A DNA stretch of 64,000 bases from a bacterium (lineage in GTDB: Bacteria > Joyebacterota > Joyebacteria > Joyebacterales > Joyebacteraceae), in contig JALGZD010000102.1 in assembly GCA_025782395.1 (NCBI GenBank), positions 1 through 64,000 on the forward strand, given 5' to 3'. The translations under genes were made by a program, and so were the position numbers. Below the pieces are notes generated by a model that worked only from the letters and a program-made list of their open reading frames with translations, had not been told where the DNA came from and ran no database searches. Shown here in pieces: positions 32,828-52,655 of this stretch. Positions within the stretch are counted from its first letter, which is position 1. The number at the start of each line of letters is the position of its first letter.

Positions 32828-32951
32828 CTGCTGGAACTCCGTGGCGCCATCTGGACAGCTGCTGGAACTCCGTGGCACCACCCGGACAGCTGCTGGAACT
32901 CCGTGGCACCACCCGGACAGCTGCTAGAACTCCGTGGCACCCGTGAACATG
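32828..32951. repeat. 31-bp tandem repeat, 4 copies, copied from the pmbA 3' end
   Basis: Units begin at 32828, 32859, 32890 and 32921, each containing GGAACTCCGTGGC. Copies 2 and 3 are identical, copies 1 and 4 are slightly diverged. Copy 4 includes the last codons and stop of the PmbA gene (stop at 32924-32926), so the array looks like an outward duplication of the gene end. Nothing else is visible between moxR and pmbA. Confidence 0.95.
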
Positions 32952-38247: not shown

Positions 38248-39468
38248 CTACGAAATGATGGTCGGAGTTATCTTGATGATCAGATCCGACGTCTTCACCG
38301 AGTTCTTCACGTGCTTGAAGAGATAGCCGATAATCGGGATATCGCCCAGAAACGGCACCTTGATATCCTCGGTGCTTGTGTCTTCATTCAGAAGCCCCGC
38401 AATAATGAAGGTCTGCCCGTCTCTAACGCGAACCTGCGTGGATGTCCGCCGCTCCTTGGTCCACGGGATCTCTTCGTTCGGCCCCTTCCAGCCTACAATG
38501 CTGCTGACGTTCGGTTCCACGAGAACCGTGATGTGGCCATCGCCCGTCGCTCTCGGCGTGACGCTGACCGTAACGCCGACCTTCTCTCGCTCAACCGTCA
38601 CTTCCACGGCGCCGGCGGACGACACGCCCGAGACGGTATACGGAATGACATCGCCGATGTGAATCTCAGCCTGACGGTTGTTCAGCGTTGCGAGCTGTGA
38701 GCGGCTCAGGATTCGTGCTTTCCCCTCTCCCTCCAGGAAGTCGATGGCCATTTCCAGAGTCTGAGCCTGCCGCGCGATGTCGTCGACGTCGAAGTGAACC
38801 ACATCCCATAGCATTTCCTCTGGAAGCCCGTCGGGCGCGGACGGTTCCGGCGAGCCTTCCGCAAACAACACGGTCTGGCTCATCAGCTTGGACCAGTCGA
38901 TGCCGTATTCCATCAGATCATCCGTCGTTACCTCTATGACCTCGGTCACCAGCATGATCTGAGCGGGCGGGACATCCAGTTTCTTCACAACGCGACGGAT
39001 CTGCTCGATCTTGCCGGGCGACGCCACCACGATCAGGCGGTTGCCCCCGGGATCGGTCGACGCGCTCTCCGCTATCTCGCCGATCAGCGGTTCGAGCTCA
39101 TGCGCATCGGCGAACATGATGTCGAGCACATATGAGTCGAGACCCGTCTCCTCCGCAAGAGTCTCGGCATCTCCGACGAGAATCGAGTCCCCTATCCTCT
39201 CGTAGGCAAGACCGGCGGCCCTGACAACGAGATCGAGCGCCTCGTCGATCGGAGTGTTCCTGATATGTACCGAGACGACTTTCCCCTCTACGGCCGGACT
39301 GGTCACGATGTTGAGGCCACTCTTGTCGGCAAGAATGGCGAGAACATCCGTGAGTGCGGTCTCCCTGGCGCTCACCGACACGGTGGTTTCTTCAGGTTGT
39401 GCTGACACCGCTGGTGCGAGCGTGAAGACCAGTAGAACCCCTGTGATGATTGTCGCGTAAAACCTCAT
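38248..39468 (-). CDS. pilQ: Type IV pilus secretin PilQ (short form)
   Basis: About 406 residues from the ATG at 39468. A signal peptide (VLLVFTLAPAVSA) is followed by STN/N1-like domains (about 30-165). The secretin barrel domain ends in VPFLGDIPIIGYLFK, the secretin signature. It forms the outer-membrane pilus channel. It lacks the N-terminal AMIN domains of many PilQ proteins. It is the last gene of the pil operon and converges on the two hairpins. Confidence 0.92.
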   Translation of the reverse strand: MRFYATIITGVLLVFTLAPAVSAQPEETTVSVSARETALTDVLAILADKSGLNIVTSPAVEGKVVSVHIRNTPIDEALDLVVRAAGLAYERIGDSILVGDAETLAEETGLDSYVLDIMFADAHELEPLIGEIAESASTDPGGNRLIVVASPGKIEQIRRVVKKLDVPPAQIMLVTEVIEVTTDDLMEYGIDWSKLMSQTVLFAEGSPEPSAPDGLPEEMLWDVVHFDVDDIARQAQTLEMAIDFLEGEGKARILSRSQLATLNNRQAEIHIGDVIPYTVSGVSSAGAVEVTVEREKVGVTVSVTPRATGDGHITVLVEPNVSSIVGWKGPNEEIPWTKERRTSTQVRVRDGQTFIIAGLLNEDTSTEDIKVPFLGDIPIIGYLFKHVKNSVKTSDLIIKITPTIIS

Positions 39469-39487
39469 CTTCTGTGTTCCCCCTGTC

Positions 39488-39982
39488 TCACTTGCCCGGT
39501 GGATACGAGTACGTCCGGGTGGTTCCATCGTAGTCAATGATCACACCGCCGCTCGTAATCTCCGTTACCTTGCCGCCATTCACGGTGTCTCCTACTCTCA
39601 CGCTGATGCTGCGGCCTCTGGCTTCGACGATTGCCATCGGATTGCTGTCGATTACTAGAGCAGTTACCACAACTGTGGGACGACTCGGCTTGGACGAAGC
39701 GGACGATCCGGATCTGGGCGTGCTTCTCTTCTTCTCTTTCGGGACCATCGGATCGCGAGCCGTAACCGTCTCATCTGTCTTCTCAACATCTGTCCGGACG
39801 CTCCTGAGATCCTCCAGGAGTTCCGACAGGTTTTCCCCCTCGACATCCATCCCCATCCGTTCCTCGTTCACGAGCTTCCCTATCTTGCCCGAGATACCGA
39901 GGCTCCTGGCAGCAACCCCCGCACCTATGTAGATGGTGCTTACGGTGGCTACGATCATGATTACTACGTGATGGGTCTTCAT
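39488..39982 (-). CDS. PilP-like pilus assembly protein
   Basis: 164 residues. One N-terminal membrane helix (HVVIMIVATVSTIYIGAGVAA), a Pro/Ser/Lys linker, and a small beta domain (VEARGRSISVRVGDTVNGGKVTEI..IIDYDGTTRTY) resembling the HR domain of PilP/GspC. No lipobox Cys follows the leader, unlike classic PilP. The position between pilO and pilQ supports a PilP role in linking the inner-membrane platform to the secretin. Confidence 0.75.
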   Translation of the reverse strand: MKTHHVVIMIVATVSTIYIGAGVAARSLGISGKIGKLVNEERMGMDVEGENLSELLEDLRSVRTDVEKTDETVTARDPMVPKEKKRSTPRSGSSASSKPSRPTVVVTALVIDSNPMAIVEARGRSISVRVGDTVNGGKVTEITSGGVIIDYDGTTRTYSYPPGK

Positions 39983-40025
39983 GGTGATTCCATCCCCCGA
40001 TCCTCCGGTCAAATCCGGTCGCGAT

Positions 40026-40535
40026 TCAGTAGCCCGTAACTGTGAAGTTCAGGAGCGTGCGGTGGCCCTTTCCTGCCGCGATCACTCGATTCGATCTCAC
40101 GTCCAGAGAAGTCATAGTAACGATCTCCGGCACGCCTTCGAGGTACTCAAGAAACTGCGCGATTGCTTCGTAGTTCCCTCCGAATTCAACCAGATATGAT
40201 CTCTCGCGGTAGTCACCGACTGCCAGCCTGTCGCTCTTCGGCTCGAGCTGAATGAGCAGCAGACCGAGCCTGGCCATCTCAGCACTGACACTTGCGAGGA
40301 AGTGCTGGTCGGCCGACATGTCCCCGCCGAGCTTCTCCGGCAGGTAGATGTGGGCTTCGTCAAGATCCAACTCGGTATTCAGGATCTCCGAGAGAGCTAT
40401 TTCAGCTCGGGCGATGTCACCGGTCAGCGAGATCATTGCCCTCCACCGCGGCCTCTGAACCGCCACGTTCAGCACGATCACAAGACCGAGTACGATGAGG
40501 GGAATCGCGATGCCTATTCTGTCACGCGTCGACAT
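40026..40535 (-). CDS. pilO: Pilus assembly protein PilO
   Basis: 169 residues with an N-terminal membrane helix (IGIAIPLIVLGLVIVLNVAV), a coiled coil (about 35-70) and a ferredoxin-like domain (YLVEFGGNYEAIAQFLEYLE). PilO pairs with PilN in the inner-membrane alignment complex. It overlaps the pilN end by 14 bases. Confidence 0.88.
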   Translation of the reverse strand: MSTRDRIGIAIPLIVLGLVIVLNVAVQRPRWRAMISLTGDIARAEIALSEILNTELDLDEAHIYLPEKLGGDMSADQHFLASVSAEMARLGLLLIQLEPKSDRLAVGDYRERSYLVEFGGNYEAIAQFLEYLEGVPEIVTMTSLDVRSNRVIAAGKGHRTLLNFTVTGY

Positions 40536-41151
40536 AGTGCACCTCTGATGCTATCGGGCCTTGAAGAGGCAGGATCACCTCAAAGGACAGACCCTCCATG
40601 AGTGTGTCATCGACATCACCTTCCCACCGCATCGTCGCCAGCCTGACATCCCGGAAGTACCGGCTCAGCTCCGCATCACCCCGCAGCTCATCCATGAAGC
40701 TCATGAGCTCAGTGACGCTCTCGTCGCGACCCTTCGCCTTGACGATGCCGAATATGTGGAATGCCCCCGCAGCCCCGGTTTCATTGAGCACGGAGGCCTC
40801 GGTCAACGAGAGCCGCATATACCATGTATCAGGCGGCGCAAGTTCCCCGACCCGGCGAAGCATACTGCTCCATGGGACCAGCGCCGCCCGATCCTTGAGA
40901 AGCAACAGTTCGTCTGCGGTGACGCCGGCGCCTTCCTCGGTTGCCACCTCGAAGGCTCGCTCAACGTTCTCCAGACGAGCTTGCGCAACATCAAGACCCT
41001 TCCCGGTAGACCGGAGCGCCTGCGCGTAGATCAGGAGCATTGCGAAACTCACACCTGCGAGCAGGACGATTGTGCCAAGGGAACGCGCACTGGCGGCGGC
41101 TTCGCGACGTCGCTCTCTGCCGAGACGGTAGATATTGAGTTCAAACAGCAC
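40522..41151 (-). CDS. pilN: Pilus assembly protein PilN
   Basis: 209 residues. The cytoplasmic N-terminal motif FELNIYRLGRERR (PilM-binding N-I-x-L-like) precedes a membrane helix (about 28-47) and a periplasmic ferredoxin-like domain. It starts three bases after the pilM stop and overlaps pilO. PilN anchors PilM to the membrane. Confidence 0.87.
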   Translation of the reverse strand: MLFELNIYRLGRERRREAAASARSLGTIVLLAGVSFAMLLIYAQALRSTGKGLDVAQARLENVERAFEVATEEGAGVTADELLLLKDRAALVPWSSMLRRVGELAPPDTWYMRLSLTEASVLNETGAAGAFHIFGIVKAKGRDESVTELMSFMDELRGDAELSRYFRDVRLATMRWEGDVDDTLMEGLSFEVILPLQGPIASEVHYVDA

Positions 41152-41154
41152 GCT

Positions 41155-42096
41155 CTACCTCCTCCTTGCCAGTCCCATGGCCAACGCGAACCTCGGGCTC
41201 TGCGCCCTCAGTTCACTCATATCAACATCACCAGACGCGACCGATCCCAGCGGATCCAACAGCCTCACATCGACTCCGAGTTCATCCTCAAACCGCTCCC
41301 GAATGAACTCGTCGAGCGCCCGTCCTCCAGAGAGGTAGACGGCCTCGATCCCCTTCTTCCCGGTCTCGTTGTTGTAGAATGCCAGAGAGAAGCGGACCTC
41401 CGTCAAGACGTGCTCCAGCCATGTGTCTTCTTTGTCGCCTATTGGAATCGATCGAGAGAGAAGCAGGCCCCTCGAGGCGTACACCGACAGATGAGCGAAC
41501 GACCGCCCCAGCTCCAGCACAGCCACCGCGCCCCCGTTCAGGAGTCCCTCAGCATCGACTTCGTTGAGAAGCGCCAGAGTCGTGAGATCGACCACGGCCG
41601 GCTCCGCACCCGCTTCGGCAAGGAGCCGTACACGCTCATCCACCATCCCCTCCTGCGCAGCGGCAAGCAGAACGTGCATGCTGTCCTCATGGCTGGATTC
41701 GTCGCGTGCCAGGCGCGCACATGCGATGTCCGCCCCAACCGCGTCAAACGGGATGTGTTTTCTTGCCTCCCACATCGCCGACTCGTTGAGTTCGCTGTCC
41801 TTCATCTTTGGGAATTTCACATGCTTCACACTGACGCTGGTTCCGCCAACGGAACTCACTATCGTCCCCGCCTTCTGCGGCTCAATCCCTAACCCGACAA
41901 AGGCTCTGGTGATCGCGCTGACAGTGGCCATCCTCGCATCGTTCTCCGTAACGTCGGATTTTCCGACGCCCTGGATCTCCGCAATGGCCGCACCAAGGAG
42001 CTCACTCGCACCTCGCCCGTGCGCAAGGCGAACCGCCTTCACGCTGGAACTCCCCACATCAACGGCCGTAACAATGCCCCTCGAGCCGGTGAACAT
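41155..42096 (-). CDS. pilM: Pilus assembly ATPase-like protein PilM
   Basis: 313 residues, an actin/FtsA-like fold. The first phosphate loop is VDVGSSSVKAVRL and a later VLELGRSFAHLSVY is the second. YLSGGRALDEFI forms the adenosine motif. PilM is the cytoplasmic ring component that recruits PilN. It starts 21 bases after the minor pilin. Confidence 0.9.
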   Translation of the reverse strand: MFTGSRGIVTAVDVGSSSVKAVRLAHGRGASELLGAAIAEIQGVGKSDVTENDARMATVSAITRAFVGLGIEPQKAGTIVSSVGGTSVSVKHVKFPKMKDSELNESAMWEARKHIPFDAVGADIACARLARDESSHEDSMHVLLAAAQEGMVDERVRLLAEAGAEPAVVDLTTLALLNEVDAEGLLNGGAVAVLELGRSFAHLSVYASRGLLLSRSIPIGDKEDTWLEHVLTEVRFSLAFYNNETGKKGIEAVYLSGGRALDEFIRERFEDELGVDVRLLDPLGSVASGDVDMSELRAQSPRFALAMGLARRR

Positions 42097-42117: not shown

Positions 42118-42576
42118 TCAGCCCCGGTTGCGACAGACGGCAACCGCTTCGATGCTGATACCCTGATCGTCCTCAGAGAGGCCAGTGGTTCCCATGTCGT
42201 CCTCAAGCCTCACCCTGATGATCAGCTTCTTCTGATCCGGGGAGGCGAAACTCAGACTACTGATGCGATCGAGCAGCACAACGCCTGACTGATTCCTGAG
42301 CTCTGTTCCGGCGAACGAGTAGACGTTCATGAGACTGTCTGCTCCACCAGTGCGCCTGTAGACCCTCACACTCGTCCCTGGATTGCTGACAATGACGCTG
42401 CTGCCCTCGCGAATCTCGTCCATCATTCCCTCTACGATCAGGCTCGCTTCGCGCTGCACGTTCAGCCTGGCCGCAGCGTGATCCCAGGTCTCGATCGAGT
42501 TCACATACATCCCGACCCCTGCCAGGATGATGAATCCAGCCAGGAGAGAACCTATCATCACCTCAGCGAGCGTCAT
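42118..42576 (-). CDS. Minor (pseudo)pilin lacking its own in-frame leader
   Basis: 152 residues. The N-terminal hydrophobic helix begins MTLAEVMIGSLLAGFIIL, with Glu at the +5-equivalent position of type IV pilins. The usual short leader ending in Gly is missing, so Met replaces the +1 residue and the prepilin peptidase site is absent. The start codon and ribosome-binding site (AGGGGAG) lie inside the 38-bp repeat. A leader-like peptide ending KTGPRG is encoded just upstream in another frame. The rest is PilW-like in general shape. Function in pilus priming is inferred from the operon. Confidence 0.75.
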   Translation of the reverse strand: MTLAEVMIGSLLAGFIILAGVGMYVNSIETWDHAAARLNVQREASLIVEGMMDEIREGSSVIVSNPGTSVRVYRRTGGADSLMNVYSFAGTELRNQSGVVLLDRISSLSFASPDQKKLIIRVRLEDDMGTTGLSEDDQGISIEAVAVCRNRG

Positions 42577-42614
42577 TGGTCGACTCCCCTGGGCCCTGTC
42601 TTGGTGAGCGTCAT
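42573..42614 (-). CDS. Mini-ORF 3 of the leader cascade
   Basis: Encodes MTLTKTGPRGVDQ and stops at a TGA (42573-42575) that overlaps the minor pilin ATG (42574-42576) as ATGA. Identical to the second mini-ORF. Preceded by AGGGGAG. Whether it is translated is unknown. Confidence 0.4.
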   Translation of the reverse strand: MTLTKTGPRGVDQ

Positions 42615-42652
42615 TGGTCGACTCCCCTGGGCCCTGTCTTGGTGAGCGTCAT
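42611..42652 (-). CDS. Mini-ORF 2 of the leader cascade
   Basis: Encodes MTLTKTGPRGVDQ and stops at a TGA overlapping the next ATG as ATGA. It lies in the middle 38-bp unit, with the same ribosome-binding site spacing as the pilin start. Confidence 0.4.
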   Translation of the reverse strand: MTLTKTGPRGVDQ

Positions 42653-42702
42653 TGGTCGACTCCCCTGGGTCCTGTCTTTGTAAGCGTCATCCGAGATCCC
42701 AT
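42649..42702 (-). CDS. Mini-ORF 1: prepilin-leader-like peptide coupled to the upstream pilin
   Basis: Its ATG (42700-42702) overlaps the TAA of the upstream pilin gene as TAATG. It reads MGSRMTLTKTGPRGVDQ and ends at a TGA overlapping mini-ORF 2. The first 14 residues, basic and ending RG, look like a type IV prepilin leader, but the frame then closes rather than entering a pilin helix. Confidence 0.45.
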   Translation of the reverse strand: MGSRMTLTKTGPRGVDQ

Positions 42703-43172
42703 TACTGAGAAACAAGCGTCGCGAGCCATACGTGATCTCTCGGTCCGATCCTCGGCCACTCGACCGACACTCGCAGGATCTTGCACCTCGTGGTCACTCC
42801 TCCGCTTGGCCACGTGGTGTCTGCGACGGTCCATGTCATGTTCCCGATCAGATCGTCTTGCGTATCCGCAGTGCCCCTGTCGTCCATCAGCACGGACGGG
42901 TCGTTCGTCGGGTGATTGCCCACCGTCATGTTTAGACTCGTCCAGTCGGCATCTGCACCCTGTGAGCCGTAGCCGGCGTACATAAGTTCCTCCATCTTGA
43001 GCTCGGCCAGCTTAAGAGCCATCCGTCTCTCTCCGCCGGTCTCAACGAGCAGTCGCCCGCTGAACAGCATCTGATAGAGAAAGATGATGACTATGGAGAA
43101 GATGACCAGCGCGACCATGTTCTCCATGAGGCTGAAGCCTCGCTCATTCTGAACTACTCTGCACAAGTTCAC
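42702..43172 (-). CDS. Minor pilin (PilV-like)
   Basis: About 156 residues from a GTG at 43172, with GGAGG four bases upstream. The prepilin cleavage site is intact: QNERG|FSLMENMVALVIFSIVI, with Glu at +5. The body has few hydrophobic segments beyond the helix, as in PilV/GspI-type minor pilins. It sits between the major pilin and the leader-less minor pilin. The TAA at its end overlaps mini-ORF 1. Confidence 0.85.
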   Translation of the reverse strand: MNLCRVVQNERGFSLMENMVALVIFSIVIIFLYQMLFSGRLLVETGGERRMALKLAELKMEELMYAGYGSQGADADWTSLNMTVGNHPTNDPSVLMDDRGTADTQDDLIGNMTWTVADTTWPSGGVTTRCKILRVSVEWPRIGPRDHVWLATLVSQ

Positions 43173-43256
43173 GGCCTCCGTTTCCTCACATGTCTCGGAC
43201 CATCTCGAATGGGAAGGTGCCTGGGCCGCCACGTGACGGCCCAGGCAGCCTGACTA

Positions 43257-43676
43257 CTACCAGTTCGTCTCCGCAAAGGAGCCCGTTCCGGGATCGCCGT
43301 TGGCGCCGACAGCGCCGGTCTGCGTCCACTCGATGTAGGCGCCGGCCGGAGCCCATGTACCGTTCTCCGTAGCCTTGGCCATGTATCCCGTGGCCGCGAG
43401 GTTCGACAGCGAGTACGTGAAGTACTGGGCGTTACCGACATCCTCAGTCGCAAGGAACTTGTCGAGGCTTCCACCCGCGTACGTTCCGTTCTTCTGGAAG
43501 TAGACCTTTGCACCGCTATTGATCGCGTCAATGATGGCGTAGGCCTCTGTCTTCTTGCCTTCCTTGATGTAGTTCATGTAGACGGGCACACCGATACCGG
43601 CGAGCACCATGACGATAATGACGACTACCATGAGCTCCATCAGGGTAAAACCCTTCTGGTTCCTGAGCTTGAACAT
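43257..43676 (-). CDS. pilA: Major type IV pilin-like protein
   Basis: 139 residues with a nine-residue leader MFKLRNQKG cleaved before FTLMELMVVVIIV, the class-IVa prepilin pattern. The start is fixed by AGGAGG about seven bases before the ATG at 43676. An in-frame ATG at 43724 would add 16 residues and has no site. The C-terminal part is Gly/Ala/Thr-rich. It is the probable fibre subunit of the apparatus encoded around it. Confidence 0.88.
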   Translation of the reverse strand: MFKLRNQKGFTLMELMVVVIIVMVLAGIGVPVYMNYIKEGKKTEAYAIIDAINSGAKVYFQKNGTYAGGSLDKFLATEDVGNAQYFTYSLSNLAATGYMAKATENGTWAPAGAYIEWTQTGAVGANGDPGTGSFAETNW

Positions 43677-43703
43677 CGTTTTACCTCCTAAAGACTGCGC
43701 TTC

Positions 43704-43743
43704 TGCCTGTTCTGCCTCTCCCATGCCTATTCTGCCTCTCCCA
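43704..43743. repeat. 20-bp tandem repeat, 2 copies, upstream of the pilin gene
   Basis: Two copies begin at 43704 and 43724 and differ at one base. On the minus strand each contains ATGGGAGAGG. The upstream one opens a five-codon frame closed by TAG, the downstream one is in frame with the pilin. Confidence 0.9.
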
Positions 43744-43848
43744 TCTGCCCCACCGTGCCTATGCTCGCGGCAGGTCTCCTGATTCTCTCTATACCTTCCT
43801 CCTTCGTTGGATTGCCTTAGCTAGTTGTCCTCTTGTCTGGAAAGACCA

Positions 43849-45081
43849 CTAGTGACTGCCTCGCCTCAGCGCCTGGCCCATGGTGAAGATCGGCAAGAAC
43901 GTCGCGACCACGACAAGCGCGACCATTCCCCCCACTATCACGATCATGGCCGGCTCGATCATTGACGCGATCGTATGGATCGCTGCCGCGCTCTGGTCGT
44001 CGTAGTAATCTGCGATCTCTGTCAGCATTTCACTCAATGATCCTGTCTCCTCACCCGTCGCCACCATCTGGATGACTATTTCAGGAAAGACACTGGCTTC
44101 CTTGAATGCGGCGGACAGGTTCGAGCCCCGCGATATCATCTCGCTCATGCGATCTGCTGCATCCGTAATCACGCTGCTTCCCGCTGTTCCCCCGGCAAGC
44201 CTGAGAGCTTCCATGATGGGAAGACCACTTTCCACAAGAACGCCGAGAGTCCGCAGGAACTTCGCCAGCACGATCTTCCTGATGACTCCGCCGACCGCTG
44301 GCAGGCGCATCAGCATGGTGTCCAGGAGCAATCGCCCGGACTTACTGCGTCCGACTGCCTTCCACGCCACAACCAGGCTCGTTGCCACCAACGCCACAAG
44401 CCAGAGCTTCGACACGGCCAGATTGCTGATGTTGATCACCGTCTGGGTCAGCACCGGCAGATCCATCCCAAGCTTCGAATAGACAGAGGACATCATCGGG
44501 ATGATCTTGAGAAAAATGACGGCAGAACTCACTATCACGAAGGCGATCATAAAGATCGGATAGGCCGTCGCCGATTTCACCCTGCGCTTGATATCCTCCA
44601 CACGATCGAGATACTCGGCGAGCTGTCGCATGATGGTATCGAGGTTGCCGCTCTCTTCTCCGGCCCGGACCAGGTTGATGTAGAGCTCCGAGAATGTCTC
44701 CCGGTGTCGTGCCAGGGCGCCGGAGAACGTTTCGCCGGCCGACACCTCATCCGCCACGAGCTTCAGCGAAGAGGAGAGAGCCGCGTCCGTGCCGTCCTTG
44801 GAAAGCGCGTGGAGAGCGCGAACCAGCGGAAGCCCGGCTCGGAGCATCGTAGCAAGCTGACGAGTCACAAGCGACACGTTGGCCGCTTTCGCCTTCTTCG
44901 TGAAGAACGAGCCGCCATCGAGCAGTTTGCTTCCTATTCTTTCGCCGCCGCGCCTGATGGAAAGGACGACGAGACCCCGAGCATGGAGAATGTCGGCGGC
45001 CGCCTGAGCGGATTCGGCACTCAGAACGCTTGACATTCTTGCGCCTCCAGCACTTCTGGCGACATACTCGAAATCAGCCAC
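43849..45081 (-). CDS. pilC: Pilus inner-membrane platform protein PilC
   Basis: 410 residues with two GspF domains, each with LAxxLxxxGxPLxxAL-like helices (TMLRAGLPLVRALHAL; LGVLVESGLPIMEALRL), and three membrane segments. The N-terminal FEYVARSAGG and the late VATGEETGSLSEML are conserved. It is the rotor or platform for the extension ATPase. It follows pilB by 12 bases. Confidence 0.94.
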   Translation of the reverse strand: MADFEYVARSAGGARMSSVLSAESAQAAADILHARGLVVLSIRRGGERIGSKLLDGGSFFTKKAKAANVSLVTRQLATMLRAGLPLVRALHALSKDGTDAALSSSLKLVADEVSAGETFSGALARHRETFSELYINLVRAGEESGNLDTIMRQLAEYLDRVEDIKRRVKSATAYPIFMIAFVIVSSAVIFLKIIPMMSSVYSKLGMDLPVLTQTVINISNLAVSKLWLVALVATSLVVAWKAVGRSKSGRLLLDTMLMRLPAVGGVIRKIVLAKFLRTLGVLVESGLPIMEALRLAGGTAGSSVITDAADRMSEMISRGSNLSAAFKEASVFPEIVIQMVATGEETGSLSEMLTEIADYYDDQSAAAIHTIASMIEPAMIVIVGGMVALVVVATFLPIFTMGQALRRGSH

Positions 45082-45093
45082 AGTTCTTCTCCT

Positions 45094-46851
45094 CTACTCG
45101 ATCACGGCGCTCAATGCTTCCTCGAGCGTCGTCATACCATCTCTCACCTTCGCGAACGCGCTCTCCCTCAGCGATCTCATTCCCTGTTTGATGGCCAGGG
45201 CTCTGACCTCATCCGCTGATGCGTGATTGAGCACCAACCGTGTGGTCTCCGGTGTGCTTGGCATAAACTCATAGACTCCGATTCGCCCTCTGTAGCCACG
45301 CCCGCTGCAGTGCTTGCAGCCCGTGCCCCGGTAGAACGTCGCGCCTTCGAGCTCGCCGTTCTTCAGCGATGCCCTGACGGCCGCATCCGGTTCGTACGGC
45401 TCCTTGCACTTCTCGCACACCCTACGGATCAGCCTCTGCGCCATCACCATGTGGACTGAACTTGTCACGAGATACGGCTCTATCCCCATGTCGACCAGCC
45501 GAGTCAGCGTACAAGGCGCATCGTTCGCGTGCACCGTGCTCAGGACAAGATGTCCGGTCAGCGCCGCCCTCACGGCAAGTTCTGCAGTTTCCAGATCCCT
45601 GATCTCACCGATCATGACGATGTCCGGATCCTGCCGGAGTAGTGCCCTGAGTCCACGCGCAAAGGTCATTCCAGCCTTGTTGTTGATGGAGACTTGATTG
45701 ATGCGGTTCAGGTAGTATTCGACCGGATCTTCGAGAGTCGTGATGTTCTTTCCCTTGCGGTCGAGCTCGCTCAGACCACCGTATAGTGTGGTCGTCTTGC
45801 CGGAACCTGTGGGACCACTTATCAGCACCATCCCGAAGGGCCGCGAGAGTCCCTTCCGGAAGCGCGCCAGAGTGTCATCCTCAAAACCCAGCTGACCGAG
45901 ATCGGCTGAGAACGTCGACCGGTCCAGAAGCCTCATCGCCACCTTTTCGCCGTGCACTGTTGGAAGAGATGAAACCCTGACATCGACGCTCCGTTTCTCG
46001 ATGCGAATAGTGAAACGACCGTCCAACGGAATCCGCCGCTCCGCCACGTTCATGTCCGAGAGGATCTTGATCCGAACGACGATGGCCTCACTGAACTGCT
46101 TCGGGGGAGTCAGAGCGTCGTAGAGGGTTCCGTCCACTCGATAGCGAACGACCACTCTGTCCTCAGTCGGTTCGATATGTATGTCCGTGGCGCGTTCGGT
46201 GATCGCCTGCCCGAGGATCAGATCGACCAAACGGATGATGGGCGCGTCTTCGGCCTTGTTTATCAGCTCCTGTTCACTGAAATCTCTGCCCGAGGTCTCG
46301 TCGATGCCAAGCTCGATTCTGGCTCCGTCGACCGCATTCGCTATGTCCCGGCCCGCCGTAGCAAACCTGTAGGCCGTGGCAAGAGCCGCATCTATGTCGG
46401 CGGCCCGGCCCACCTGGACAACGACATCCAGACCCGTGGCAACCCGGATATCGTCGATGGCCACCATGTCGAGAGGATCCGCTATCGCGACCGTGAGAGT
46501 CATCCCGTCACGGCTCACGGCGAGGGCGTGGTATCTTCTGGCCATGTGTTCGGGAATCAGCAGCGTCGTTTCCGGCTCTGCGGATATCGCATCAGGCGCA
46601 TAGAACACACTGAGATTGAGCTGTGAGGCAAGGGCGCTGACTATGTCTACTTCTGACACGCGCCCCAGGTTGATGAGTGTCTCGCCGAGTCGCTCTCCCG
46701 TCGCCTTCTGGCGATCCAGCGCTTCGATGAGACTCTTCTCGTCTATCACCCCGGCCGACACAAGCACATCACCAAGACGCTTCTTGCTGAACAAGAGGTC
46801 TTTTGCCCTACCCGTCTGCATCGCTTCGCTCTTCATGTCTTCTTCTTCCAT
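45094..46851 (-). CDS. pilB: Pilus extension ATPase PilB
   Basis: 585 residues from the ATG at 46851. An N-terminal MshEN domain (about 20-165, RLGDVLVSAGVIDEKSL), which can bind c-di-GMP, precedes the GspE ATPase. Walker A is SGPTGSGKTTTLYG and Walker B is MIGEIRDLETAE. The zinc cysteines are CEKC and CKHC near the C-terminus. It powers pilus extension. No retraction ATPase (PilT) is in the window. Confidence 0.95.
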   Translation of the reverse strand: MEEEDMKSEAMQTGRAKDLLFSKKRLGDVLVSAGVIDEKSLIEALDRQKATGERLGETLINLGRVSEVDIVSALASQLNLSVFYAPDAISAEPETTLLIPEHMARRYHALAVSRDGMTLTVAIADPLDMVAIDDIRVATGLDVVVQVGRAADIDAALATAYRFATAGRDIANAVDGARIELGIDETSGRDFSEQELINKAEDAPIIRLVDLILGQAITERATDIHIEPTEDRVVVRYRVDGTLYDALTPPKQFSEAIVVRIKILSDMNVAERRIPLDGRFTIRIEKRSVDVRVSSLPTVHGEKVAMRLLDRSTFSADLGQLGFEDDTLARFRKGLSRPFGMVLISGPTGSGKTTTLYGGLSELDRKGKNITTLEDPVEYYLNRINQVSINNKAGMTFARGLRALLRQDPDIVMIGEIRDLETAELAVRAALTGHLVLSTVHANDAPCTLTRLVDMGIEPYLVTSSVHMVMAQRLIRRVCEKCKEPYEPDAAVRASLKNGELEGATFYRGTGCKHCSGRGYRGRIGVYEFMPSTPETTRLVLNHASADEVRALAIKQGMRSLRESAFAKVRDGMTTLEEALSAVIE

Positions 46852-46867
46852 CACGGTCTTCCCGCTC

Positions 46868-48244
46868 CTAGGCGGAGGGCAGAACCTCATTCCAACGGCT
46901 GATGAGATAGCAGCCCGTCTCAGGGTAAAAGGGTGGCGCCTCATTCCCCATGCGCGTGTCGTGGTGGTACTGTCTGCTGTACCCGTGCATGAAATGTCCG
47001 CCAAACCAGGATATGCTGACCAGCCCGGAGTGACTCTGAGTAATCGACCCGTAGACGATGAGATCGCCCCTCGGGCCGCCGCTGAAGGGGGCCTCAGCCC
47101 CAAACGAGTTCCGCAACGCCATCATTGCCGCGTGAATCTCGCAGTCGTTGTTATTTGCCGTCGTCTTTGCGACGACGATGTTCTCTCTCGCGATGAGTCC
47201 CAGCATGTCGTCACAGCCCGGGTCCGGACCGCTTCCCGGGGTCGAGTCCAGGTAGAGCACATCGTCCCGAATGAAGATGTTCCCCGCGCTCCCGATCGTC
47301 AGCCGACCGTCCAGCGTGCCTTCCAGCCAGATCATTTCCTCGGCCCAGACAAGACCGTTCAGGGTTGCCAGGTTCACGTCGCTCCAACCGCTGTAGACGT
47401 AGTGATGCCCCTGCCTCCCGTACGAGCGATAGCTCAAGAAGCCGTTCGCTCCGTTTCGCGCCAAGATGATCTCATATCGAGCTTTCGAGCCGTTCAGGTT
47501 CCCGAGCAGAAGTCCACCCGATTGCGCCGCACTGCGGAGAGCCGCGCGAAGCTTGTTACGGTTCGGGACAGGGATCCTGTCGACACTGACTTCGTAGCCC
47601 TTCTCGAAGGTCGGTCGACTCCAGGGGAACATCAGGATCCTGGGTGCGCATGTCGTGACCTTGTCTCCGAACCACGGATCTCCGTTGATGTATATCCAGC
47701 GGTTGCAGTGCACCAGCCCGTCAAGATTGTCGTTCGTCGTGAACCAGCTTAAGAACCTCGAGTGGTCGGCAAACCACAGGTACTTCGCGAATGTCTCCTT
47801 GCTGATCGTCGCGTGTATCTCGCTCTTGACGCCGTTGACTTCACCTATCGACACGACGGCGTACTTCGCGAACGACGGACCCACACCACCGACGCTTGTG
47901 AATGTGCTCGTGTACTCCCCGTCACCGAGCGCCTCCGCTGTGAAGCTCCCGCTCACCGGGTACTGCGGTGGAGTTCGATTCATCTTCGCGGTAAGGTATG
48001 CCTTGGTCCGCTGCAGCCCGGCTTCCGCCAAATAGAAAGCCTTGGCTTCCTCAGCCTGGTACGTCACGAGATCGTGTTCGGCAGTACCGAGGATGAACAG
48101 CGCGCATCCAATCAGCAACACTGCCGTCATGAAAGCCATCACGGCGATGAGCGATGCTCCTCGCTCTCCTCTGCCGATCCTGCGAAGCCGCCCGGGTCCG
48201 TCCTGCCTGAAACCCAGGAACGCCGCGATAAGAAGATCCTTCAT
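46868..48244 (-). CDS. PilX/DUF4900-like pilus-associated protein
   Basis: 458 residues from the ATG at 48244, first gene of the pilus operon. An N-terminal segment ERGASLIAVMAFMTAVLLIG resembles a pilin-type helix, followed by FYLAEAGLQRTKAYLT as in PilX N-domains. A large beta-rich part with Gly, Asn and several Cys follows. I do not recognise a full-length homologue. Its operon place suggests a minor pilin or surface-exposed tip protein. The start is chosen as the ATG inside the long reading frame, preceded by GGTGAACTG. Confidence 0.7.
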   Translation of the reverse strand: MKDLLIAAFLGFRQDGPGRLRRIGRGERGASLIAVMAFMTAVLLIGCALFILGTAEHDLVTYQAEEAKAFYLAEAGLQRTKAYLTAKMNRTPPQYPVSGSFTAEALGDGEYTSTFTSVGGVGPSFAKYAVVSIGEVNGVKSEIHATISKETFAKYLWFADHSRFLSWFTTNDNLDGLVHCNRWIYINGDPWFGDKVTTCAPRILMFPWSRPTFEKGYEVSVDRIPVPNRNKLRAALRSAAQSGGLLLGNLNGSKARYEIILARNGANGFLSYRSYGRQGHHYVYSGWSDVNLATLNGLVWAEEMIWLEGTLDGRLTIGSAGNIFIRDDVLYLDSTPGSGPDPGCDDMLGLIARENIVVAKTTANNNDCEIHAAMMALRNSFGAEAPFSGGPRGDLIVYGSITQSHSGLVSISWFGGHFMHGYSRQYHHDTRMGNEAPPFYPETGCYLISRWNEVLPSA

Positions 48245-52522: not shown

Positions 52523-52535
52523 CGCCCCTCCACAA

Positions 52536-52655
52536 GAGCAGCAGCATCACATGACAGCAGCATCAGAGCACCGGTATCGCGTCACCGTAGATTCAGAGCA
52601 GCAGCATCACATGACAGCAGCATCAGAGCACCAGCATCGCGTCACCGTAGCTATA
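52536..52655. repeat. 60-bp tandem repeat, 2 copies, copied from the queA 3' end
   Basis: Copy 2 (52596-52655) holds the last ten codons and stop of queA. Copy 1 (52536-52595) sits between queA and tgt with a few differences and repeats those codons, followed by another TGA at 52563-52565. Since 60 is a multiple of three, the frame matches queA, so copy 1 is a second, untranslated gene tail. Confidence 0.95.

Follow-up and report, generated by a model that had tools for sequence, protein, structure and literature searches.

Organization of the minor-pilin locus

The window analyzed here is a stretch of 64,000 nucleotides from a bacterial genome of 2.9 Mb. The whole arrangement described below lies on its minus strand, which the first-pass annotation did not state, and consists of an array of short repeats (42690-42577) with a PilV-like gene on its upstream side and a minor-pilin gene on its downstream side. 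From upstream to downstream, the features are:

43257..47103, minus strand: upstream pilus genes, namely a ComP/PilA-type pilin, PilC (T2SSF) and PilB (T2SSE)
42702..43232, minus strand: PilV/GspI-like prepilin gene with an ordinary leader in its sequence, NERG before FSLMEN (Pfam N_methyl, 9.7e-8)
42577..42690, minus strand: three 38-bp tandem units, ATGACGCTYACMAAGACAGGRCCCAGGGGAGTCGACCA; copies 2 and 3 are identical and copy 1 differs at 3 third-codon positions
42649..42702, minus strand: mini-ORF 1, MGSRMTLTKTGPRGVDQ, in the slot of the presumed ancestral leader
42660-42663 and 42622-42625, minus strand: GGAG copies ahead of the ATGs of mini-ORF 2 and mini-ORF 3
42611..42652, minus strand: mini-ORF 2, MTLTKTGPRGVDQ; its start overlaps the mini-ORF 1 stop (ATGA)
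42573..42614, minus strand: mini-ORF 3, MTLTKTGPRGVDQ; its stop overlaps the pilin start (ATGA)
42584..42587, minus strand: GGAG, the putative Shine-Dalgarno (SD) site of the pilin, spaced 7 nt from its ATG
42118..42576, minus strand: leaderless minor pilin, start MTLAEVMIGSLL; Met1 corresponds to mature residue +1 and Glu5 is kept
41155..42096, minus strand: PilM, the next gene of the pilus operon (Pfam PilM_2, 1.5e-27)
38248..41151, minus strand: downstream pilus genes, three ORFs assigned to PilN/O/P by position and then the secretin
38248-39537, minus strand: secretin (Pfam Secretin, 1.4e-45)

The cluster, with PilB, PilC, a ComP/PilA-type pilin, the PilV-like protein, the minor pilin, PilM, genes in the N/O/P positions and a secretin, looks like a full type IV pilus operon. 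Based on its position and on weak profile matches, the minor pilin is probably of the PilW/GspJ type. It has no Pfam match, and sequence and fold searches of the PDB for a GspJ/PilW match returned nothing significant. Its predicted structure (pLDDT 80) shows a long N-terminal helix followed by strands.

Read along the minus strand, the PilV-like gene is followed by TAATG, mini-ORF 1, ATGA, mini-ORF 2, ATGA, mini-ORF 3, ATGA and the pilin. TRF reports a 38-bp x 3.2 array at 42568-42690 with 96% matches, and together with the minus-strand sequence this bears out the three tandem units and the TAATG and ATGA overlaps that the first-pass annotation had described. At the first junction the TAA of the PilV-like gene (42704-42702) shares its last A with the ATG of mini-ORF 1 (42702). 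Each unit contains GGAG, 7 nt and an ATG, and AGGGGAG stands ahead of the ATGs of mini-ORF 2, mini-ORF 3 and the pilin. A 24-mer core of the unit occurs three times in the window and in none of 100 shuffles. The ATGA overlap is less remarkable when taken alone, since a start codon followed by Thr (ATG ACN) always contains a TGA in the +1 frame. No ribosome-binding site precedes the first ATG (42702; duplex of -0.3 kcal/mol), which would therefore be usable only through coupling from the PilV-like gene, unless the start is the second Met of mini-ORF 1 (42690), where the duplex reaches -7.0 kcal/mol.

Other repeats were also seen in the window. At 43704-43744 (minus strand) a 20-bp sequence is present twice in the 5' region of the ComP/PilA-type pilin gene, and its first copy reads ATG GGA GAG GCA GAA TAG (MGEAE*), a short ORF just upstream of the pilin start MFKLRNQKG (~43676). 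A 31-bp x 3.7 tandem repeat with 95% match (CTGCTGGAACTCCGTGGCACCACCCGGACAG) is found at 32828-32941 and its period is not a multiple of 3, while a 30/60-bp tandem repeat of the AGAGCACCAGCATCGCGTCACCGTAGAATC type at 52535-52650 has a period that is a multiple of 3 and is perhaps coding.

A minor pilin without a leader in seven species

Twenty genomes of the phylum, all from one family, were compared, and an orthologue of the pilin lies between the PilV-like gene and PilM in 14 of them. The window species (G000) belongs to a genus of five species (g1; G000-G004), and its congeners are four Candidatus Eisenbacteria MAGs. All four begin the pilin at MTL[S/A]EVM with no in-frame leader. In four other genera (g2, g4, g6, and g8) an in-frame, Gly-ending leader stands directly before M/F/L-T-x-x-E; examples are MSVGRLRKLMRDSRG before MTITEV, MTKRLRMHGSVTGGRLATNAG before MTMVEV and MIRHLATSRTQGG before FTITEL. 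Since these leaders end right before this motif, the ATG of the leaderless gene should correspond to mature residue +1, and a start at the Met aligned with this residue is found in the five g1 species, in G010 (genus g7) and in G012 (genus g3). The lack of a leader, which had been noticed at one locus, thus holds in seven species of three genera. The first-pass annotation had also proposed that homologues without a leader would speak against a lost one, and here the answer is split: the leader is absent in the congeners and in two other genera and fused to the pilin in four others, which is the distribution that leader loss predicts.

The pilin ATG is preceded by an in-frame stop at a distance of 12 nt in G004 and of 21 nt in G010, and no start codon lies between. 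Even with CTG, ATT, ATC and ATA included, no in-frame upstream start codon was found in L001, G004 and G010. A start further upstream was also rejected for the remaining leaderless genes, where the candidates yield no conserved leader. In all seven leaderless genes GGAG or GAGG stands exactly 7 nt ahead of the ATG, as it does for 0.9% of the ATGs in the window. With duplex energies of -6.4 to -8.1 kcal/mol, where the background has a median of -4.5, the SDs of the g1 genes are of no more than moderate strength, and the predicted RNA pairing of the SDs is mixed. The 16S tail with the anti-SD was sought in six MAGs and gave no match, so the rRNA was probably not binned.

Other properties of a type IV pilin are retained. 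Thr2 and Glu5 are invariant in 14/14 orthologues, the hydrophobic N-terminal helix is present (residues 3-54 of the predicted structure), and leader-bearing orthologues in four genera share the same synteny within the pilus operon; the leader itself (class III signal peptide) is missing, in seven species. Among g1 species the dN/dS of the pilin is 0.085-0.38, and it is lower over the first 30 codons in every pair. The pilin is under purifying selection in this genus, and a dead gene was rejected on the low dN/dS.

A tree was built from the pilin together with PilM and the PilV-like protein, and in it a 98/98 branch (97/96 when the pilin is left out) separates all leaderless species from the others, so one loss suffices. 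Leaders are general among pilins and the paralogues have them too, so it makes sense to assume loss rather than gain. The same genomes also encode a prepilin peptidase and pilins that have an ordinary leader. Paralogous copies of the pilin family with an ordinary Gly-ending leader (L002, L022, L023, and similar) follow a DUF4900-like gene, and the copy in the window species (contig C128) lies ~1 kb from the prepilin peptidase gene. A search of open-licence papers found no report of a leaderless pilin. In our view, the conserved leaderless pilin that starts at mature residue +1 is both firmer and more interesting than the array in front of it.

The mini-ORF as a probable former leader

In the leadered genera the leader starts at the stop of the PilV-like gene or at most 4 nt from it. 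The mini-ORF start overlaps this stop in four of the five g1 species and in g7, and the ATGA junction onto the pilin start is also present in G001, G002, G003, and G010. The single-copy mini-ORFs of g1 are MGVRMTFIRTGSRGVGQ and MGLKMWFIRTGSSGVEQ. The G002 mini-ORF ends in TCCAGGGGA, followed by GTCGGCCA (8 nt) and ATGACA, and the g8 leader ends in TCCAGAGGA, followed by ATGACG; the two have the same Ser-Arg-Gly, with 8 nt extra and the frame lost in G002, and the likeness is matched by 1.5% of shuffles. It is weak for G001 (8% of shuffles) and for the window species (13%). The mini-ORF is out of frame with the pilin by 8 nt in four g1 species and by 1 nt in G004.

Leader-like endings of the mini-ORFs are RTGSRG and KTGPRG, and the mini-ORFs of G003 and G004 do not end in RG. 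The first ATG is missing in G003 and the g3 species (G012, L016) has no mini-ORF, so the element is not strictly conserved. The g7 orthologue (L053) is leaderless and has no array; a basic mini-ORF of 21 amino acids starting with TTG overlaps the stop of its PilV-like gene and ends as ATGA on the pilin start. An array is also absent from the leaderless orthologue in g3. The first-pass annotation had compared the mini-ORF to a prepilin leader, and this likeness stands: the mini-ORF reads leader-like and occupies the slot of the orthologues' in-frame leader. We infer from these sequences, with moderate confidence, that the mini-ORF is a severed leader. Should the loss date back to the split between g1 and g3/g7, survival of the leader-like stub would need selection, or else a separate, later loss in g1.

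Copy number and growth of the array

The number of full units differs among the g1 species: three in the window species, two plus a partial copy in G003, one in G002, one in G001, and none in G004. The two species with arrays are non-sisters in either tree (the order of g1 species is poorly resolved), and array copies are most similar within their own species; this calls for two expansions, or one expansion with homogenisation and losses. In the single-copy G002, ATGACCTTC and ATGACACTC lie 38 bp apart and form a ready seed for duplication in the observed register. The growth by tandem duplication that had been proposed at the outset is thus supported by a relative that carries ATGAC..TC at a distance of 38 bp. 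The variability in copy number suggested with it is found between species, while a phase switch in the classical form is unlikely, since added units leave the pilin's own SD and start unaltered. Although 38 is not a multiple of 3, a duplication does not break the pilin because each unit has its own SD and ATG.

Copies of the same array differ at five sites in all, each of them a third codon position of the mini-ORF (0.004 by chance), which suggests that the mini-ORFs are translated. Between species the mini-ORF codons show a mixed pattern without consistent constraint. The unit was found only at this locus in the G000 genome and at no convincing second site in the four congeners, and a dispersed or mobile repeat was rejected on this basis.

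A possible route from leader to coupled cistron

One explanation, which we regard as probable, is that the leader was severed by a frameshift, that the start moved to Met+1, and that the stub became a coupled mini-cistron which was later duplicated. The leader of an Eisenbacteria type IV minor pilin would have been put out of frame, with 8 nt separating the Gly-1 and Met+1 codons in g1 (GTCGACCA in the window species), and the cleavable leader would have been lost. Translation would now begin at Met+1, the first residue of the mature pilin, with the former Arg-Gly codons (AGG GGA G) serving as the pilin Shine-Dalgarno 7 nt upstream. The old leader would persist as a mini-ORF that begins on the stop of the PilV-like gene (TAATG or TGATG) and ends on the pilin start (ATGA). 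Ribosomes that finish the PilV-like gene could reinitiate on the mini-ORF and pass from ATGA to ATGA until they reach the pilin by termination-reinitiation, and ribosomes that load anew at the internal SDs might raise pilin output further. Pilin output would thereby be tied to that of the PilV-like protein, presumably its partner in a pilus tip complex. The stretch from the second Met of the leader to the pilin Met would then have been duplicated (38 bp) in two species, that of the window and one other, and the pilin would stay translatable because this stretch carries a complete SD and ATG. Initiation at Met+1, the coupling of the PilV-like gene, mini-ORFs and pilin, and any effect of unit number on pilin dose are what we infer from the arrangement of the sequence. 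A stronger version, which we hold to be rather doubtful, is that the minor subunit is made directly in its mature form and bypasses the prepilin peptidase, while the leader is kept as a translated, coupled cistron whose copy number sets the dose.

Another option is that the array arose by neutral slippage between ATGACNNTC repeats 38 bp apart and has no regulatory role, with the pilin initiated at its own SD. The unit numbers among the five g1 species follow no apparent conserved value, the G003 array is kept despite the loss of its first ATG, the pilin does have an SD of its own, and the seed repeat is already present in the single-copy G002. Against it, the differences between copies of an array all sit at third codon positions of the mini-ORFs, and most species retain the stop/start overlap at either end. 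We consider this option unlikely, yet a serious contender. Much less credence is given to an assembly artefact or a decaying gene, in which indel errors or pseudogenisation removed the leader and the repeat was mis-assembled. All the genomes are metagenome assemblies and short tandem repeats are prone to miscounting. Yet the lack of a leader recurs in seven separately binned species of three genera, the arrays of two species lie inside contigs of 93 and 85 kb, and, at ~100-125 bp, these arrays are near or below the k-mers named for the congener contigs (117-141). The dN/dS well below 1 also stands against decay, and we find this account scarcely credible.

Programmed frameshifting or bypassing might instead join the mini-ORF to the pilin, so that an ordinary prepilin is still made. 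The leader-like endings of the mini-ORFs, placed on the pilin start, would fit such a process, but its offset would have to differ among species (8 nt in four, 1 nt in G004). A -1 shift at the stop gives RG-VDQ-MTLAEV, which places Glu at +8 against the invariant +5, and with three units a shift would read through the last unit only. Moreover, the G003 and G004 mini-ORFs lack the RG ending and g3 has no mini-ORF to join. A leader-pilin fusion by frameshifting was rejected on the unlike offsets and the wrong Glu spacing, and we give this possibility very little weight.

Type IV pilins are by convention defined through their cleaved leader, on which motif-based programs for finding pilins depend. 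A conserved leaderless pilin with Glu5 intact may offer a natural test of how far membrane insertion and pilus assembly rely on the leader, on its cleavage and on N-methylation. Under the severed-leader explanation, the locus also suggests a plausible route by which a signal peptide turns into a regulatory mini-cistron and Arg-Gly codons into a ribosome-binding site, and it shows how a mini-cistron can multiply without harming the gene behind it.

Comparison with known systems

The Eisenbacteria pilin resembles minor pilins of the PilW/GspJ kind in its place after a PilV/GspI-like gene, in an operon of the pilB-C-A-V-(W)-M-N-O-P-Q type, and in its hydrophobic alpha1 with Thr2 and Glu5. It differs from them by the missing leader peptide and by the lack of a Pfam or significant PDB match. 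A partial precedent may be ComGF of Bacillus subtilis, which is encoded in a type IV filament operon and resembles pilins but is not known to have a clear site for prepilin peptidase. Nor is ComGF known to start exactly at mature residue +1 or to have a duplicated mini-ORF upstream. The leader of type IV pilins has been described as having, invariably, Gly or Ala as its last residue ahead of the hydrophobic stretch (PMC10191384).

For tandem coupled mini-ORFs, the search of open-licence papers found no report. Among known systems, the unit resembles the mycobacterial interspersed repetitive units (MIRUs), short repeated units within operons whose small ORF is coupled to the next gene at a -4 nt (ATGA-type) overlap and which can gain copies at little cost to the host gene (PMC12548453). 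The ORF of the Eisenbacteria unit has the same -4 nt overlap at its ATGA junctions. However, MIRUs are dispersed and appear mobile, whereas this unit is confined to one locus, has a shorter length of 38 bp and seems to descend from the leader of the gene it precedes; since it is not dispersed, we do not file it as a MIRU. The arrangement also recalls the leader cistrons of the synthetic bicistronic design (BCD), in which a short first cistron with an embedded second SD ends on the start of the next gene and delivers ribosomes to it (PMC12548453, PMC5995908). Here, too, the stop of the mini-ORF overlaps the downstream start, at all three junctions of the window and in G001, G002, G003, and G010, and the putative pilin SD lies inside the short ORF, with GGAG at -11 to -8 in 7/7 leaderless genes. 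Unlike the BCD cistrons, the Eisenbacteria element is natural, lies within an operon and is present in up to three tandem copies, with a coupling that is still putative.
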